Shown one piece after another: positions 25,920 through 34,638 of a stretch of 64,000 nucleotides of DNA. Location of the stretch: positions 3,038,001 to 3,102,000 of the forward strand of contig NZ_CP033969.1 in the NCBI RefSeq assembly GCF_003854935.1, written 5' to 3'. The notes below the pieces were generated by a model. The model was not told the origin of the DNA. It worked only from the letters and a program-made list of their open reading frames with translations, and made no database searches. A program made the translations under genes and the position numbers. Within the stretch, counting starts at the first letter, position 1. Each line of letters starts with the position of its first letter. This DNA is from Cupriavidus pauculus (GTDB lineage: Bacteria > Pseudomonadota > Gammaproteobacteria > Burkholderiales > Burkholderiaceae).

Positions 25920-26152
25920 CGAACGAATGGGAGGCGCGGGATGCCCGGCGGCGCGTGACGCGCTGGCGCCATTCCCCGACCGGGCAGTCAGCGATGGTAG
26001 CACCGCCGCTGCCGGCGTGTCCGCGCCCGCCTGAAACGGGCGTTTTTCTCGCGTTGCACCACCGGAACCGGCATCTGCCGACTCAGGAAAAACCCTGATC
26101 TGGCGCCGAATAGTGGCCCACGATGCCTTTCCCGGCCCCTTCCGGCCCCTAT
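25920..26152. other. Intergenic region upstream of the deacetylase gene
   Basis: Around 230 bp of GC-rich DNA between the deacetylase start and the phasin control region. I find no gene, tRNA or strong hairpin. A promoter for the deacetylase gene should lie here on the minus strand, but none with good hexamers stands out. Confidence 0.4.
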
Positions 26153-26205
26153 TTTTTGTGCGACGCACAAAAACCGCTTGACACATATCGTCGAATTCTT
26201 AGAAT
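26153..26205 (+). promoter_or_regulatory. Phasin promoter with upstream palindrome (possible PhaR site)
   Basis: TTGACA (26178-26183), a 16-bp spacer and TAGAAT (26200-26205) form a strong sigma-70 promoter. Immediately upstream a perfect inverted repeat has 9-base arms, TTTTTGTGC and GCACAAAAA, around GAC (26153-26173). In Cupriavidus the phasin gene is repressed by PhaR, which leaves DNA when PHA granules form, so this palindrome is a candidate PhaR operator. The transcript would have a leader of about 165 nt. Confidence 0.65.
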
Positions 26206-26377
26206 TGGAATTGTTGCGGCGCATCAAAGCGCTGGACGGTCGGCAACGACAGTCCGGACGGCGCCGCCGGATACGAAGGTACGCTCGGGCTGGCCAGACA
26301 TTCAAGTCATGGCCTTGACATCTGGGCGGCTTAATTTCTTTACGCTTGACCTTGAAGTTCACCACTGGAGACCAGCA

Positions 26378-26956
26378 ATGATCCTGACCCCGGAACAAGT
26401 TGCAGCCGCACAAAAAGCCAACCTCGAGACCCTGTTCGGTCTGACCTCGAAGGCCTTTGAAGGCGTCGAGAAGCTCGTCGAGCTGAACCTGCAAGTGGTC
26501 AAGGCTACGTTTGCCGAGAACGTCGACAACGCCAAGAAGGCGCTGTCCGCCAAGGATGCCCAGGAACTGCTGGCCATCCAGGCCTCGCTGGTGCAGCCGG
26601 TAGCCGAGAAGACCCTGGCCTACACGCGTCACCTGTACGAAATCGCTTCGGAAACCCAAAGCGAGTTCACGAAGGTTGCCGAAGCCCAGCTCGCCGAAGG
26701 CACGAAGAACGTGCAGGCCCTGGTCGACAACTTCGCCAAGAACGCCCCGGCCGGCTCGGAATCGACCGTCGCCATCGTGAAGTCGGCCATCTCGGCCGCC
26801 AACAACGCCTACGAATCGGTCCAGAAGGCCACGAAGCAGGCTGTGGAAATGGCCGAAAGCAACTTCCAGGCTGCCGCCACCGCCGCGACCAAGGCTGCCC
26901 AGCAAGCCAGCGCCACGGCCCGCACGGCTGCCAAGAAACCCACGGCTGCCGCCTAA
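26378..26956 (+). CDS. phaP: Phasin, polyhydroxyalkanoate granule-associated protein
   Basis: A 192-residue Phasin_2-family protein, helical and Ala/Lys-rich, with no signal peptide or transmembrane helix. It coats intracellular PHA granules and controls their size. The N-terminus [20 protein letters not shown] is very close to the PhaP1 type known from Cupriavidus necator, and the C-terminus is an Ala/Thr/Lys-rich tail. ATG 26378 follows TGGAGACC. Strong promoter and codon use suggest high expression. Confidence 0.93.
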
Positions 26957-27345: not shown

Positions 27346-29136
27346 TCAGCGCTTGCGCGGCGGCGGCACGTCCGTGCACACCCCTTCGTAAATCTCCGCA
27401 GCCATGCCGATCGACTCGCCGAGCGTCGGGTGCGGGTGGATGGTCTTGCCGATATCCACCGCATCCGCGCCCATCTCGATGGCCAGGCAGACTTCGCTGA
27501 TCAGGTCGCCCGCGTGGGTGCCGACGATGCCGCCGCCGATGATCCGGTGCGTTTCCTCGTCGAAGATCAGCTTGGTGAAGCCTTCGTCGCGGCCGTTGGC
27601 GATGGCTCGGCCCGACGCGGCCCACGGGAACACGCCCTTGCCGTACTTGATGCCCTGCTGCTTGCACTGGTCCTCGGTCAGGCCGGCCCAGGCCACTTCC
27701 GGATCGGTGTAGGCCACCGACGGAATCTGCTTGACGTCGAAGTATGCCTTCTCGCCGTGGGCGGCTTCGGCGGCCACGTGGGCCTCGTGCACGGCCTTGT
27801 GCGCCAGCATGGGCTGGCCGACGATATCGCCAATGGCAAAGATGTGCGGCACGTTGGTCCCCATCTGCTTGTCGACGTCGATGAAGCCACGGTCGGTCAC
27901 GGCCACGCCGGCCTTCTCGGCGCCAATCTTCTTGCCGTTCGGCGTGCGGCCCACGGACACCAGCACCGCGTCGTAGCGCACCGGCTCGGCCGGGGCGCCC
28001 TCGCCTTCAAACTTGACGTAGATGCCGTCCGGCTTGGCTTCCACGCCCACCGTCTTGGTCTTCAGCATCACGTTGTCAAAGCGATGCTTGTTCATCTTGT
28101 CCCAGACCTTCACCAGGTCGCGGTCGGCGCCCTGCATCAGGCCATCGAGCATTTCCACCACGTCGATGCGCGCGCCCAGCGTGCTGTACACCGTGGCCAT
28201 TTCCAGGCCGATGATGCCGCCGCCGATGACCAGCATCTTGTTCGGGATGTCGCGCAGTTCCAGCGCGCCGGTCGAATCGAAGATGCGCGGATCTTCGGGG
28301 ATAAACGGCAGCTTCACGGCCTGGCTGCCGGCCGCGATGATCGCCTTTTCAAAGCGGATCACGGTCTTCTTGCCATTGGTGGCCTTGCCGTCGCCCTCGG
28401 TTTCCTGCACTTCCAGGTGATTCGGGTCCAGGAACGTGCCCACGCCGCGCACCACCTGCACCTTGCGCGCCTTGGCCATGCCGGCCAGGCCGCCGGTCAG
28501 CTTGCCGACCACGGTTTCCTTGTAGTGGCGCAGGCCGTCCAGGTCGATCTTGGCTTCGCCGAACAGGATGCCGTGCGCGGCCAGCGCCTTGGCCTCGTCG
28601 ATCACGGCCGCGTTGTGCAGCAGCGCCTTCGACGGGATGCAGCCCACGTTCAGGCAGACGCCGCCCAGCGTGCCGTAGCGCTCCACCAGCACCGTGTTCA
28701 TGCCCAGGTCGGCCGAGCGGAAGGCCGCCGAGTAGCCGCCGGGGCCGGCGCCCAGCACGAGCATGTCGCACTGGATGTCGGCGCTGCCGCCGTGCCGGGC
28801 GGCCGTGGGGGCCGGGGCCGCTGCGGGGGACGGCGCTGCCGCCGGCGCCGGGGCCGGGGCCGATGCAGGAGCCGGAGCCGGCGCGGCTGCTGCCGCCGCG
28901 CCGCCTTCCACCGTGCAGATCACGGTGCCCTTGGCAACCTTGTCGCCTACCTTCACCTTGACGTCCACCACCTTGCCGGCGGCCGACGACGGCACGTCCA
29001 TGCTGGCCTTGTCGGACTCCAGCACGATCAGCGACTGCTCTTCCTCGACCGTGTCGCCGGCCTTGACCAGCACCTCGATCACTTCCACCGCGTCGAAATC
29101 GCCGATATCCGGCACCTTGACTTCGATCACACTCAT
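27346..29136 (-). CDS. lpdA: Dihydrolipoyl dehydrogenase (PDH E3) with N-terminal lipoyl domain
   Basis: A 596-residue E3 component. Residues 1-80 form a lipoyl domain with the modified lysine in [12 protein letters not shown], followed by an Ala/Pro-rich linker (about 80-120) and the flavoprotein disulfide reductase core: FAD site [19 protein letters not shown], redox pair [13 protein letters not shown] site [11 protein letters not shown], and the C-terminal His-Glu region HPHPTLGES. It reoxidises the lipoyl arms of E2 and makes NADH. The lipoyl-E3 fusion equals PdhL of Ralstonia eutropha. It is the last gene of the pdh operon. Confidence 0.94.
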
Positions 29137-29175: not shown

Positions 29176-29808
29176 TCAGGCCGCGTCGTCTTTGTTGGTT
29201 GCCGCGTCGCCGGGTTCCTGGGGCGCCGCCTGGATGCTGCCAAGGAGCTGTACCGTATGCACGTCGATCGGGCCGGCCGAGCTCTTGTCGAACTCGATCC
29301 CGGCATCCACGCCGATCCGCGCGATGTCGCCCGCGCCCAGGTCGGGCCGGTCGTAGACCGCGTGCATGGCTCCGAGCGCATAGTTGCGGCCCGAGCCGAT
29401 GCCCCAGAAACGGTCGAACGAGAACACCTCGCGGTAGGAATAGACGCCAAAGATGCCGCCCGGGTTGGCGATCAGGCAGACGATCTGCGAAGACTCGTAC
29501 GGGTCGTCGTCGTCTTCCTTGGTGTTGATGAAGTACTCGGTCTTGAGCCGTTCATGCACCTTCAGGAACGTCCGGAACACGTCGTCGCGCGTCAGCAGCC
29601 GGCATTCGTCGCCCATGCCCGTCAGCAGCGCGCGCATGACCGGGAAATGCGCGGTGGTGCCCGCCAGCGCGACAAAGCTCTCGCCCACGGGAATCACCTT
29701 CTGGTTGCGCTCGTAGGCACGCGACAGCCGCGTATCGCCGAACGTCACCAGCGCATCGGCCGCAATCGCTACCTCGTCACCCTTACGTACGACAACGCAG
29801 GTCGTCAT
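29176..29808 (-). CDS. Betaproteobacterial proteasome homologue (BPH), Ntn-hydrolase in the pdh operon
   Basis: A 210-residue protein with the proteasome beta/HslV-like Ntn-hydrolase fold. MTTCVVVRKGDEVAIAADAL places a Thr at residue 2, the likely nucleophile after Met removal, and the AADALVTFGDTRLS segment resembles the HslV/20S Asp17-Lys33 region (a Lys follows in NQKVIPVGE). GIGSGRNYALGAMHAV is the typical late beta-subunit motif. Proteasome-like genes called BPH have been described from betaproteobacteria. It corresponds to ORF3 between pdhB and pdhL in Ralstonia eutropha. No ATPase partner is adjacent. The last 20 residues are acidic and polar. Confidence 0.8.
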   Translation of the reverse strand: MTTCVVVRKGDEVAIAADALVTFGDTRLSRAYERNQKVIPVGESFVALAGTTAHFPVMRALLTGMGDECRLLTRDDVFRTFLKVHERLKTEYFINTKEDDDDPYESSQIVCLIANPGGIFGVYSYREVFSFDRFWGIGSGRNYALGAMHAVYDRPDLGAGDIARIGVDAGIEFDKSSAGPIDVHTVQLLGSIQAAPQEPGDAATNKDDAA

Positions 29809-29867: not shown

Positions 29868-31535
29868 TTAGAGCAGGATGCGGCGGAAGTCTGCCAGCAG
29901 TGCCGCAAAGTACGTGTTGAAGCGCGCGGCCTCGGCGCCGTCGATCACGCGGTGGTCCCACGACAGCGACAGCGGCAGCGTCAGGCGCGGCGCGAACTGC
30001 TTGCCGTCCCACACCGGCTTCATGTACGACTTGCACACGCCCATGATGGCCACTTCCGGCGCATTGATGATCGGCGTGAAGTACGTGCCGCCGATGCCGC
30101 CCAGCGACGAGATCGAGAAGCAGCCGCCCTGCATCTGGTCCGGCTTCAGCTTGCCGTCGCGGGCCAGCTTGGCCAGCTCGCCCATCTCCTGGCTGATCTC
30201 CAGCACGCCCTTCTTGTCGGCGTCCTTGATCACCGGCACGACCAGGCCGTTAGGCGTGTCAGCGGCAAAGCCGATGTTGAAGTACTTCTTCAGCACCAGG
30301 TTGTCGCCGTCCAGCGAGGCATTGAAGTTCGGAAACTTCTTCAGCGCCGCCACGGTGGCCTTGATCATGAACGCCAGCATCGTCACCTTGATGCCGGCCT
30401 TCTCGTTTTCCTTGTTCAGCTGCACGCGGAATGTTTCCAGCTCGGTGATGTCCGCCTCGTCGCAGTTCGTGACGTGCGGGATCATGACCCAGTTGCGGTG
30501 CAGGTTGGCACCCGAGATCTTCTTGATGCGCGACAGCGGCTTGGATTCCACCTCGCCGAAGCGCGTGAAATCAACCTTCGGCCACGGCAGCAGGTCCAGG
30601 CCGGCGCCCGAACCGCCGGCGGCGGCAGCGGCGGCCGGGGCAGCGGTCTGGCCCGACATCACACCCTTGACGAAGCCCTGCACGTCCTGCTGCGTGATAC
30701 GGCCCTTGGGGCCGGTGCCGGGCACGCGCGACACGTCCACGCCCAGTTCGCGCGCGAACTTGCGTACCGACGGGCTGGCGTGGGCGGCCTTGCCGGTCAC
30801 GCCCTGCGCGGCGGCGGGCGCCGGAGCGGCGGCCGGGGCCGGTGCGGGCGACGGCGCGGCGGCAGCGTGTGCCGGTGCAGCGGCCGGAGCCGGGGCCGGC
30901 GCCGAGGCGGCCGGTGCGGCGGCGGCCGCGCCACCGGCGGCTTCCAGGATCAGGATCAGCGTGCCTTCGGCGACGTTGTCGCCGACCTTGACCTTCACTT
31001 CCTTGACCGTGCCGCCCTGCGGGGCCGGCACGTCCATCGTGGCCTTGTCGGATTCCAGCGTGACCAGCGCGTCCTCGGCGTTGATCGTGTCGCCGGCCTT
31101 GACGTGGACTTCGATCACCGGCACGGCGTCATAGTCGCCGATGTCCGGCACCTTGACCTCGACGGTGCCACCGCCGGCCGGAGCCGGGGCAGGTGCCGGG
31201 GCGGCCGCGGGGGCCGGCGCGGCGGCTGCGGGCGCCGGGGCCGGTGCGGCGGCGGCCGGAGCCGGTGCGGGCGCCGGTGCCGACGCGGCGGCGCCGGCCG
31301 GTTCCAGCATTACCAGCACGGAGCCCTCGGCCACGTTGTCGCCGACCTTGATCTTCACTTCCTTGACCGTGCCGGCCTGCGGCGACGGCACGTCCATCGT
31401 GGCCTTGTCCGATTCCAGCGTGACCAGCGCGTCTTCCGCGTTGATCTGGTCGCCCGGCTTCACATGCACTTCGATGACGGGAACGGCGTCGTAGTCGCCG
31501 ATGTCCGGCACCTTGATTTCAATCGCTTGACTCAT
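29868..31535 (-). CDS. aceF: Dihydrolipoyllysine acetyltransferase (PDH E2) with two lipoyl domains
   Basis: A 555-residue E2 core protein. Two lipoyl domains (about residues 1-80 and 118-197), each with [11 protein letters not shown] containing the lipoylated Lys, are joined by long Ala/Pro linkers. A peripheral subunit-binding domain ([20 protein letters not shown] near 257-276) and the catalytic domain follow, ending with [15 protein letters not shown] that carries the active-site His and Asp. It transfers acetyl groups from E1 to CoA. It corresponds to pdhB of Ralstonia eutropha. It lies about 200 bp after aceE on the same strand. Confidence 0.95.
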
Positions 31536-31735: not shown

Positions 31736-34423
31736 TCAGACCGACATCGGGTTCGGCTTGTTCGGGTCGAGGTTGTACTTCTTGATCGCCTCGGCCACCT
31801 TCTCGCGGCCGATCGCACCCTCGTCGGCCAGCGCCTTCAGCGCGGCCACCGTCACCCAGTTGCGGTCCACTTCGAAGAAGTGGCGCAGCTTCTCGCGCGT
31901 ATCCGAGCGGCCGAAGCCGTCGGTGCCCAGCACCACGTAGCGGCGCGGCACGAACGGACGGATCTGCTCGGCGAAGGCGCGGATGTAGTCGGTCGACGCG
32001 ATCACCGGGCCGCGCACGCCCTTGAGCTTCTGGGCGACGAACGATTCGCGCGGCGTCTCGGTCGGGTGCAGCAGGTTGTAGCGCTCCGTGGCCTGGCCTT
32101 CGCGGGCCAGCTCGGTGAAGCTCGGGCAGCTCCAGATGTCCGATTCCACGCCCCAGTCCTTCTTGAGCATGTCGGCGGCGGCGATCACCTCGCGGAAGAT
32201 GGTGCCCGAGCCCAGCAGCTGCACGCGCGGCGCGTTGCTGTTCTCCACGCCCTTGCGGAACTGGTACATGCCCTTGACGATGTCGCGTTCCACGCCAGCC
32301 GGCATTTCCGGATGCTCGTAGTTCTCGTTCATCACCGTCAGGTAGTAGTACACGTCTTCCTGCTCGGCGTACATGCGGCGCAGGCCGTCCTGCATGATCA
32401 CGGCCAGTTCGTACTGGAACGTCGGGTCGTACGAGATGCAGTTCGGGATGGCGGCGTGGAACACGTGCGAGTGGCCGTCCTCGTGCTGCAGGCCCTCGCC
32501 GTTCAGCGTCGTGCGGCCCGACGTGCCGCCCAGCAGGAAGCCGCGCGAGCGCATGTCGGCGGCGGCCCAGCACAGGTCGCCGATCCGCTGGATGCCGAAC
32601 ATCGAGTAATAGATATAGAACGGGATCATCTGCACGCCGTGCGTCGAGTACGACGTGGCGGCGGCAATCCAGTCGCACATGGCGCCGGCTTCGTTGATGC
32701 CTTCCTGCAGCACCTGGCCCGTCTGCGATTCCTTGTAGAACATGAGCTGGTCATGGTCTTCGGGCACGTACTTCTGGCCTTCCTGGTTCCAGATGCCGAC
32801 CTGACGGAACAGGCCTTCCATGCCGAACGTGCGCGACTCGTCGGGCACGATGGGCACCACGTGCTTGCCGATCTGCTTGTCCTTGAGCAGCGTGTTCAGG
32901 ATCCGCACGAACGCCATGGTCGTGGACACCTCGCGGCCTTCGCCGGTGGCCTTGAGCAGCGCGTCGAACGCCGACAGTTCGGGCACCTTCAGCGCCTCGG
33001 CCTTCTGGCGGCGGGTAGGCAGGTAGCCGCCCAGGTTCATGCGCGCCTGGCGCATGTATTCCAGTTCCTTCGAGCCTTCCTCGAAGGTCAGGTACGGCAC
33101 TTCCTCCAGCTTCTCGTCCAGCACCGGAATGCTGAACTGGTCGCGGAACGCGCGGATGGCGTCCACCGGCATCTTCTTCTGCTGGTGGGCCACGTTCATG
33201 GCCTGGCCGGCGTCGCCCATGCCATAGCCCTTGATCGTCTTGGCCAGGATCAGCGTGGGCTGGCCCTTGTGCTCGCTGGCGGCCTTGTACGCGGCGTAGA
33301 CCTTGTGCGGATCATGGCCGCCACGGTTCAGGCGCCAGATGTCGTCGTCGGACCAGTCGGCCACCATGGCCTTCAGTTCCGGCGTGTTGAAGAAGTGCTC
33401 GCGCACGTAGGCGCCGTCCTTGGCCTTGAAGGTCTGGTACTCGCCGTCCACGGCCTCCATCATCCGCTTCATCAGCAGGCCCTTGGTGTCGCGCGCCAGA
33501 AGCTGGTCCCAGCGGCTGCCCCAGACCACCTTGATCACGTTCCAGCCCGAACCGCGGAATTCCGATTCCAGTTCCTGGATGATCTTGCCGTTGCCGCGCA
33601 CCGGACCGTCCAGGCGCTGCAGGTTGCAGTTGATCACGAAGACGAGGTTGTCCAGCTTTTCGCGGCCGGCCATGCCGATCGCGCCCAGCGATTCCGGCTC
33701 GTCGGTCTCGCCGTCGCCCAGGAAGGCCCAGACCTTGCGGTCGCCGGCCTTGGCCAGGCCGCGGCTGTCCAGGTACTTCATGAAGCGGGCCTGGTAGATG
33801 GCCATGATCGGGCCCAGGCCCATCGACACGGTCGGGAACTGCCAGAAGTCCGGCATCAGCCACGGGTGCGGGTACGACGAGATGCCCTTGCCGTCCACTT
33901 CCTGGCGGAAGTTGTCGAGCTGCTCGGTCGTCAGGCGGCCCAGCAGGAACGCGCGCGAGTAGACGCCCGGAGCCGAGTGGCCCTGCACGAAGACCAGGTC
34001 GCCGCCGCTCTGTTCCGACGGGGCGCGCCAGAAGTGGTTGTAGCCCACGTCATAGAGCGTGGCCGCCGAGGCGAACGACGAGATGTGGCCGCCGACGTTG
34101 GTGTGCTTGTTGGCGCGCAGCACCATGGCCATGGCGTTCCAGCGCGTGTACGAGCGGATGCGGTGCTCGATGTCCTGGTCGCCGGGAATGCGGGCCTGCT
34201 GCTCCACCGGGATGGTGTTGATGTACGGGGTCTCGGCGTGGAACGGCTGCGTCACGCCGTTCACGCGCGCGTATTCGATCTGCTTGTCGATCAGGAAGGC
34301 TGCGCGTTCGGCGCCTTCCGCGTTCAGGACGCCCTGCAGGGCATCCAGCCATTCGTGCGTTTCCTGGGGATCTGCGTCGTTGGCGCTGCTGGCGCCGAGG
34401 ATCTGCTCTGGTACAGCGGACAT
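31736..34423 (-). CDS. aceE: Pyruvate dehydrogenase E1 component, homodimeric type
   Basis: An 895-residue thiamine diphosphate enzyme that decarboxylates pyruvate and acetylates the lipoyl arm of E2. The N-terminal segments YINTIPVEQQARIPGD and FVQGHSAPGVYSRAFLLGRL are characteristic, and the ThDP motif GDGETDEPESLG begins a GDG...N region ending FVINCNLQRLDGPVRG. C-terminal FVPRRYVVLGTDGFGRSDT is conserved. ATG 34423 follows CCAGGAGACAG. The E1-E2-BPH-E3 order equals pdhA-pdhB-ORF3-pdhL in Ralstonia eutropha. Confidence 0.96.
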   Translation of the reverse strand: MSAVPEQILGASSANDADPQETHEWLDALQGVLNAEGAERAAFLIDKQIEYARVNGVTQPFHAETPYINTIPVEQQARIPGDQDIEHRIRSYTRWNAMAMVLRANKHTNVGGHISSFASAATLYDVGYNHFWRAPSEQSGGDLVFVQGHSAPGVYSRAFLLGRLTTEQLDNFRQEVDGKGISSYPHPWLMPDFWQFPTVSMGLGPIMAIYQARFMKYLDSRGLAKAGDRKVWAFLGDGETDEPESLGAIGMAGREKLDNLVFVINCNLQRLDGPVRGNGKIIQELESEFRGSGWNVIKVVWGSRWDQLLARDTKGLLMKRMMEAVDGEYQTFKAKDGAYVREHFFNTPELKAMVADWSDDDIWRLNRGGHDPHKVYAAYKAASEHKGQPTLILAKTIKGYGMGDAGQAMNVAHQQKKMPVDAIRAFRDQFSIPVLDEKLEEVPYLTFEEGSKELEYMRQARMNLGGYLPTRRQKAEALKVPELSAFDALLKATGEGREVSTTMAFVRILNTLLKDKQIGKHVVPIVPDESRTFGMEGLFRQVGIWNQEGQKYVPEDHDQLMFYKESQTGQVLQEGINEAGAMCDWIAAATSYSTHGVQMIPFYIYYSMFGIQRIGDLCWAAADMRSRGFLLGGTSGRTTLNGEGLQHEDGHSHVFHAAIPNCISYDPTFQYELAVIMQDGLRRMYAEQEDVYYYLTVMNENYEHPEMPAGVERDIVKGMYQFRKGVENSNAPRVQLLGSGTIFREVIAAADMLKKDWGVESDIWSCPSFTELAREGQATERYNLLHPTETPRESFVAQKLKGVRGPVIASTDYIRAFAEQIRPFVPRRYVVLGTDGFGRSDTREKLRHFFEVDRNWVTVAALKALADEGAIGREKVAEAIKKYNLDPNKPNPMSV

Positions 34424-34638
34424 GACTGTCTCCTGGGTAAATTCCTGCCCCGGCGGCCGCCCGGTGGGGCGGTTATCGGTCGGCCGGTCTGACGGTGTTG
34501 ACGTCGCGGCGAAAGCCTTGCCTTCCTGCCCTGGCATCGGTGTACGGTCCAGGACGGGGATCTTTCTTGTCGGGTCGCATCGCCCGGATCCTCAAGCTCA
34601 AGCGCATGGCTGGCGCCCGCATTTGTTCGGTCGAAGCG

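Follow-up and report, generated by a model that had tools for sequence, protein, structure and literature searches.

BPH, a proteasome homologue encoded within the pyruvate dehydrogenase operon of Cupriavidus pauculus

Gene order at the locus and identity of the protein

The window, which is the whole 64,000-nucleotide stretch of Cupriavidus pauculus DNA analysed here, carries four genes on its minus strand in the order E1, E2, BPH, E3, with gaps of 59 nt between E2 and BPH and 39 nt between BPH and E3. The first encodes the homodimeric-type E1 of pyruvate dehydrogenase (PDH; aceE, 31736..34423), which scores 1636.4 against the TIGR00759 cut-off of 859.9 when scanned from the second codon; we set its start at the ATG at 34423 by choice, and the open frame extends to an ATG at 34537. 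The dihydrolipoamide acetyltransferase E2 (29868..31535) contains two lipoyl domains (TIGR01348, 735.7 against a cut-off of 552.1), and the dihydrolipoamide dehydrogenase E3 (27346..29136) has an N-terminal lipoyl domain (TIGR01350, 471.1 against 408.8). Between them lies the BPH gene (29176..29808), which runs from an ATG at 29808 to a stop codon at 29178-29176 and has 210 codons, specifying a 210-residue proteasome-like Ntn hydrolase of the threonine type. The initial annotation had placed an open reading frame here, between E2 and E3, without naming a strand; the gene is indeed present, on the minus strand, and the plus-strand frame across 29176-29808 is an antisense open frame. A phasin gene on the plus strand (26123-26956; PF09361/TIGR01841) is convergent with the PDH operon, and a further E2-like gene of the genome (G000:C3:1816378-1817067) is 67% identical across the catalytic part.

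A simple sequence scan of the minus strand showed no promoter-like or terminator-like sites in the two gaps flanking BPH, and one terminator-like site in the E1-E2 gap (31616-31597). The numbers of sites from the promoter and terminator scan did not exceed those in shuffled sequence (1 vs 0.8 and 5 vs 5.4). A single transcript spanning the four genes is therefore at most presumed. None of the four scanned neighbours (E1, E2, E3, and the phasin) matched an ATPase family, in agreement with the earlier remark that no unfoldase ATPase is adjacent.

The protein had been assigned from its sequence to the HslV/20S group of Ntn hydrolases, and this assignment is borne out by a score above the cut-off of the Pfam Proteasome family PF00227 (31.7 vs 22.4 bits). 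A phmmer search against solved structures placed 5ovu, the 'beta-proteobacteria proteasome homologue', first (E-value 2.4e-114, 382.6 bits, residues 2-189), with 5ovs (1.2e-35) and then the HslV structure 1m4y (1.1e-4) as runners-up. The HslV equivalog cut-offs were failed by a wide margin (31.1 vs 157.75 and 31.9 vs 137), as was that for the archaeal proteasome beta subunit (22.4 vs 224), and the immediate neighbours of the gene are E2 and E3 rather than hslU. Because the best match is 5ovu and the HslV and archaeal beta-subunit cut-offs are failed, the gene product is BPH, the betaproteobacterial proteasome homologue; the protein, its structure, and its position in a PDH operon are already in print (PMC5777263). 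A chance open reading frame is ruled out by the match to a solved orthologue over residues 2-189 and by a dN/dS of ~0.16, and plain HslV by the HslV cut-offs and the neighbouring genes. A mobile gene was also considered and rejected, as tblastn gave no match among plasmids or phages.

Active site, selection, and relation to HslV

According to PMC5777263, two BPH orthologues form double rings of 14 subunits with seven-fold symmetry, mass spectrometry of the Cupriavidus metallidurans protein shows removal of the initiator methionine to expose Thr1, and this free Thr1 binds epoxomicin. In the window, the predicted nucleophile is Thr2 (codon at 29803..29805, minus strand), identified from alignment and from homology to the BPH of Thiobacillus denitrificans, and it would become Thr1 of the mature protein. 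We aligned 158 BPH proteins, comprising 157 fetched loci and the window, with two loci present twice (L040/L189 and L110/L114). Residue 2 is threonine in 155 of the 158 and serine in three, consistent with the nucleophile named in the initial annotation. D18, K37, G50, G138, and G140 are invariant (158/158), and S139 is found in 151/158, so that the window protein holds T2, D18, K37, G50, and S139 as its counterparts of the Thr1 (or Ser1), Asp17, Lys33-equivalent, Gly, and Ser of the proteasome site (roles as given in PMC5777263). The three serine proteins of the order are L172, L176, and L182. L176 and L182 sit on a long branch, and each is the second BPH of a genome whose other copy has threonine and is linked to argG (L162 and L161). 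Two further BPH relatives belong to the class but not to the order. Of these, L220 (G355) has Ser1 and neighbours that look by eye like riboflavin genes. L219 (G321) has Thr1, against the published rule linking a serine nucleophile to BPH outside Betaproteobacteria (PMC5777263); it is highly divergent and perhaps no true BPH.

The window protein also has an acidic pore-loop segment (residues 93-106, FINTKEDDDDPYES; 29491..29532, minus strand), read from the sequence with the pore loop as described in PMC5777263 and with exact limits that are our own reading. This long loop reads TKEDDDDPYE at 96-105 in the window protein, and it is acidic in the groups of BPH proteins encoded next to PDH, hslO, and arginine genes, with position 100 often lysine in the arginine group. 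Among the loci of the Cupriavidus group, median dN/dS against the window is 0.16 for BPH (33 loci, of which L040 and L189 are one locus from two collections), compared with 0.114 for E1 (28 loci), 0.133 for E2 (33 loci), and 0.137 for E3 (33 loci). BPH is thus under purifying selection, slightly looser than that on E1, E2, and E3.

The earlier reading of the protein as a peptidase holds for the fold, whereas for activity the assays described in PMC5777263, with standard peptides and casein, were negative, even though the active-site threonine reacts with epoxomicin. BPH is therefore a putative peptidase. An alternative is that BPH performs chemistry other than protein breakdown, as a specific ligase, transpeptidase, or processing enzyme comparable to connectase of the same superfamily. 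Its inertness on peptides and casein despite a free, reactive Thr1 (PMC5777263) would fit such a role, as would the precedent of connectase, a monomeric relative that is a protein ligase (PMC8665760). H85 and R126, which are invariant in all 158 proteins, also fit it and are candidates for a BPH-specific function. However, a complete proteasome-type active site inside a closed ring is the arrangement of proteases (PMC5777263), and no substrate is known; we consider this alternative improbable.

HslV is described as the ancestor of BPH (PMC5777263). The genome of the window strain encodes both HslV and BPH, with no third match to the proteasome family. Within a sample of 200 genomes of the order, strong PF00227 matches besides BPH were found in 70 of 76 BPH-bearing genomes and in 86 of 124 others, as raw counts that ignore kinship; strong matches (E <1e-15) were sorted by hand and read as HslV, with Anbu not told apart. 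BPH as a replacement for a missing HslV is ruled out by the presence of both in the window genome and by these 70 genomes. The HslV ancestry and the more frequent strong match in genomes with BPH could instead suggest that BPH serves as a second chamber for the HslU ATPase, shared with HslV. Against such sharing, the residues that contact HslU are reported to be unconserved in BPH, HslU was absent from the published BPH pull-downs, and the rings are seven-fold while the ATPase is hexameric (PMC5777263). In addition, six BPH genomes (G023, G045, G067, G150, G188, and G190) show no strong PF00227 match. An HslU partnership is accordingly extremely unlikely.

Distribution and origin of the position between E2 and E3

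Three prevailing operon contexts have been described for BPH: arginine genes, three genes of the PDH complex (in C. metallidurans), and Hsp33 (PMC5777263). We surveyed these contexts in draws of genomes rather than in all available genomes, with order and family used as GTDB-type groups and with neighbour families assigned on representative neighbours. BPH was found at 78 places in 76 of the 200 genomes of the order sample. Besides the window, the 77 loci comprise 30 that precede hslO, the gene for the chaperone Hsp33 (no more than 1000 bp downstream), 26 next to argG and/or yajQ (argG no more than 800 bp upstream or yajQ no more than 300 bp downstream), seven next to PDH genes (E2 up to 700 bp upstream or E3 up to 700 bp downstream), and 14 with other neighbours, all rules requiring the same strand. 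For L075, L118, and L129 the PDH rule was relaxed, because their E3 open frames overlap or run too far. Contig ends are close to several of the 14 other loci, and five of the 14 directly precede a gene for an S4-domain protein; two of these S4 proteins were tested, and for both the best match was Hsp15, at a score under its cut-off. The PDH position, including that in the window, accounts for eight of the 76 BPH-bearing genomes. The initial annotation had proposed a synteny survey over betaproteobacteria and had named loss of linkage to pdh genes in most of them as counting against its interpretation; for most BPH genes in the order sample this linkage is absent.

Closer to the window, the association is complete. 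BPH occurs in 27 of 121 family genomes, representing three of 25 genera, and in all 27 the BPH match is flanked by those to E2 and E3 on one contig and one strand, the matched parts of E2 and E3 being 975-1180 bp apart. A search with named loci, which reaches close relatives only (Cupriavidus, Ralstonia, Pandoraea, and Oxalobacteraceae among them), returned 117 loci, and the best 80 of these are all in the PDH position; 79 show both E2 and E3, and L075 shows E3 only. The initial annotation had cited retention in this exact position in Ralstonia eutropha, as ORF3, and the Cupriavidus necator loci of the survey (for example L046, L056, and L062) do carry the gene there; the exact position is retained within one lineage. 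For C. necator A5-1, the PDH-BPH region occurs on two contigs (L059 and L062); in L059, the reading frames of E1, E2, and E3 seem to be disrupted, as in a decayed copy or an artefact of assembly. Twelve of 397 genomes drawn across the phylum contained BPH, including three genomes of family-level group f48 with the order E2-BPH-E3. E1 is visible in two of these three, and the contig of the third ends in E2. At least seven further f48 genomes of the draw had no BPH match.

In a tree of 85 BPH proteins, built with no outgroup and leaving out five near-identical rows and 73 of the 80 named loci, a branch supported at 95/88 has the 18 PDH rows, from five family-level groups (f1, f3, f7, f20, and f48), all on one side. 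L219, L220, and L129 are long branches in this tree. The PDH branch appears in 94% of 200 bootstrap trees, and the contexts overall need six changes, against a possible minimum of three. A quick HslV-rooted tree that included 15 named loci likewise needs one change for the PDH context, with weak support (51) when the long row L129 is kept and with 93 when only the other 22 rows are considered. It is most likely that BPH entered the PDH position once, in an ancestor of one Burkholderiales group. In this lineage, BPH was never found outside the position: 27/27 in the family, 3/3 in f48, and 80/80 among the best 80 of 117 named loci. Such complete fidelity counts against mere hitch-hiking, for which at least one move might be expected. 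The retention of BPH in the PDH lineage is real and old.

Its absence is equally real and old. Among family genomes without BPH, 82 carry E2 and E3 together on one contig and the same strand, spaced by at most 868 bp in 79 and by 1284-1554 bp in three; of the remaining 12, nine do not have E2 and E3 both on one contig and three show neither match. The wide E2-E3 spaces, which belong to related genera (L201, L202, and L203, in G217, G257, and G247), hold a GFA-type gene in all three and a glutathione S-transferase gene in two, assigned by Pfam for the pair in G247 and by eye from translations for the others. Eight of the 12 genomes of the genus of the window encode BPH. The other four gave a first impression of four losses, which was abandoned because the contigs of G250 and G297 begin inside E3 and are uninformative. 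The two congeners that remain, G260 and G279, are clean absences, with no BPH by tblastn and with E2-E3 gaps of 24 and ~64 bp. BPH-less congeners retain an E3 with a lipoyl domain. Clean absences with contiguous E2 and E3 speak against a need for BPH, making it dispensable for the PDH operon in the family, but they do not speak against a conditional or minor role.

Probable inheritance of the position, proposed function, and comparison with known systems

The initial annotation had proposed a functional tie to the PDH complex. In its fullest form, this proposal makes BPH a quality-control protease of the PDH lineage that removes damaged, orphan, or unlipoylated E1, E2, and E3, and that keeps its position for this reason. 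The exact position in five family-level groups on one side of a branch, the lack of any other location among the loci examined in this lineage, and short intergenic gaps that fit co-transcription would all agree with it. However, pull-downs with tagged C. metallidurans BPH, including those with a crosslinker, recovered no PDH subunit in the account of PMC5777263. Moreover, the 82 family genomes with E2 and E3 on one contig and no BPH include two congeners, the majority of BPH genes in the order sample are located elsewhere and have the same active site, and the space between E2 and E3 admits unrelated genes in related genera. We regard this explanation as unlikely, and rate it no lower because fidelity to the position is complete in all members of the lineage examined. 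If PDH were the client, BPH would to our knowledge be without precedent as a protease dedicated to a 2-oxoacid dehydrogenase complex. In a narrower version, BPH of the PDH lineage would be a dedicated partner that clips the lipoyl arms of damaged or unlipoylated subunits at their Ala/Pro linkers, so that its fidelity to the position would be selected. The idea follows from the consideration that BPH without an unfoldase would admit only floppy segments, and the long Ala/Pro lipoyl linkers of E2 and E3 are such segments; we hold it to be very unlikely. Overall, a PDH-specific role is possible but unsupported and in part contradicted, and position alone is no proof of one.

Instead, we favor with reasonable confidence the interpretation that the window contains an already described protein at an already described site, namely a barrel peptidase that works without ATP and is encoded in a housekeeping operon, with the space between E2 and E3 as an inherited expression site. 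By homology to the solved structures, BPH subunits would lose Met1 and expose Thr1, and would build a double ring of seven-fold symmetry that encloses the active sites and has an acidic loop at its pore. BPH most likely works without an AAA+ unfoldase of its own, which would make it independent of ATP in the cell. With no dedicated unfoldase, its substrates would already be unfolded, and BPH may thus be a low-throughput peptidase for unfolded or oxidised polypeptides, much like the uncapped 20S proteasome (PMC5777263). A proposed link to oxidative stress was not borne out in that study, where carbonylation patterns were unchanged. The position between E2 and E3 would have been entered once and then have served for expression, through co-transcription with an operon of central metabolism, and it would not be a sign that PDH subunits are substrates. 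For C. necator, pdhA mutants have lower fitness on fructose and succinate (PMC8591527), and a search by term in the main texts of C. necator papers gave no essentiality or expression value for the BPH gene.

BPH is therefore a conserved and structurally solved relative of the proteasome with no known substrate, to which the present analysis adds context counts, a likely single origin of the PDH position, and natural absences within a genus. The PDH position is the inherited address of one lineage, with Hsp33 (and Hsp15-like) and argG/yajQ neighbours commoner in the order sample. Natural experiments are at hand within a genus, where some genomes have BPH between E2 and E3 and others lack it with the two genes contiguous.

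The closest known system is the BPH of C. metallidurans (Rmet_1198; 5ovu), which has the sequence, active site, and acidic loop in common with the window protein and is encoded in an operon with three PDH genes (PMC5777263). We saw no substantial difference between the two, which are orthologues from different strains of one group. The BPH of T. denitrificans (5ovs and 5ovt) shares the family, Thr1, and the double ring, but matches the window protein with only 125.9 bits and is encoded next to argG rather than PDH (PMC5777263). HslV, which the window genome encodes at C2:662115-662627, shares the fold, Thr1, and the N-terminal motif, but differs in having HslU as a partner and in forming dodecamers instead of tetradecamers (PMC5777263). 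An ATP-independent function has been proposed for both BPH and the uncapped 20S proteasome (PMC5777263; PMC8665760), from which BPH differs in its lack of alpha rings and of demonstrated activity in vitro.
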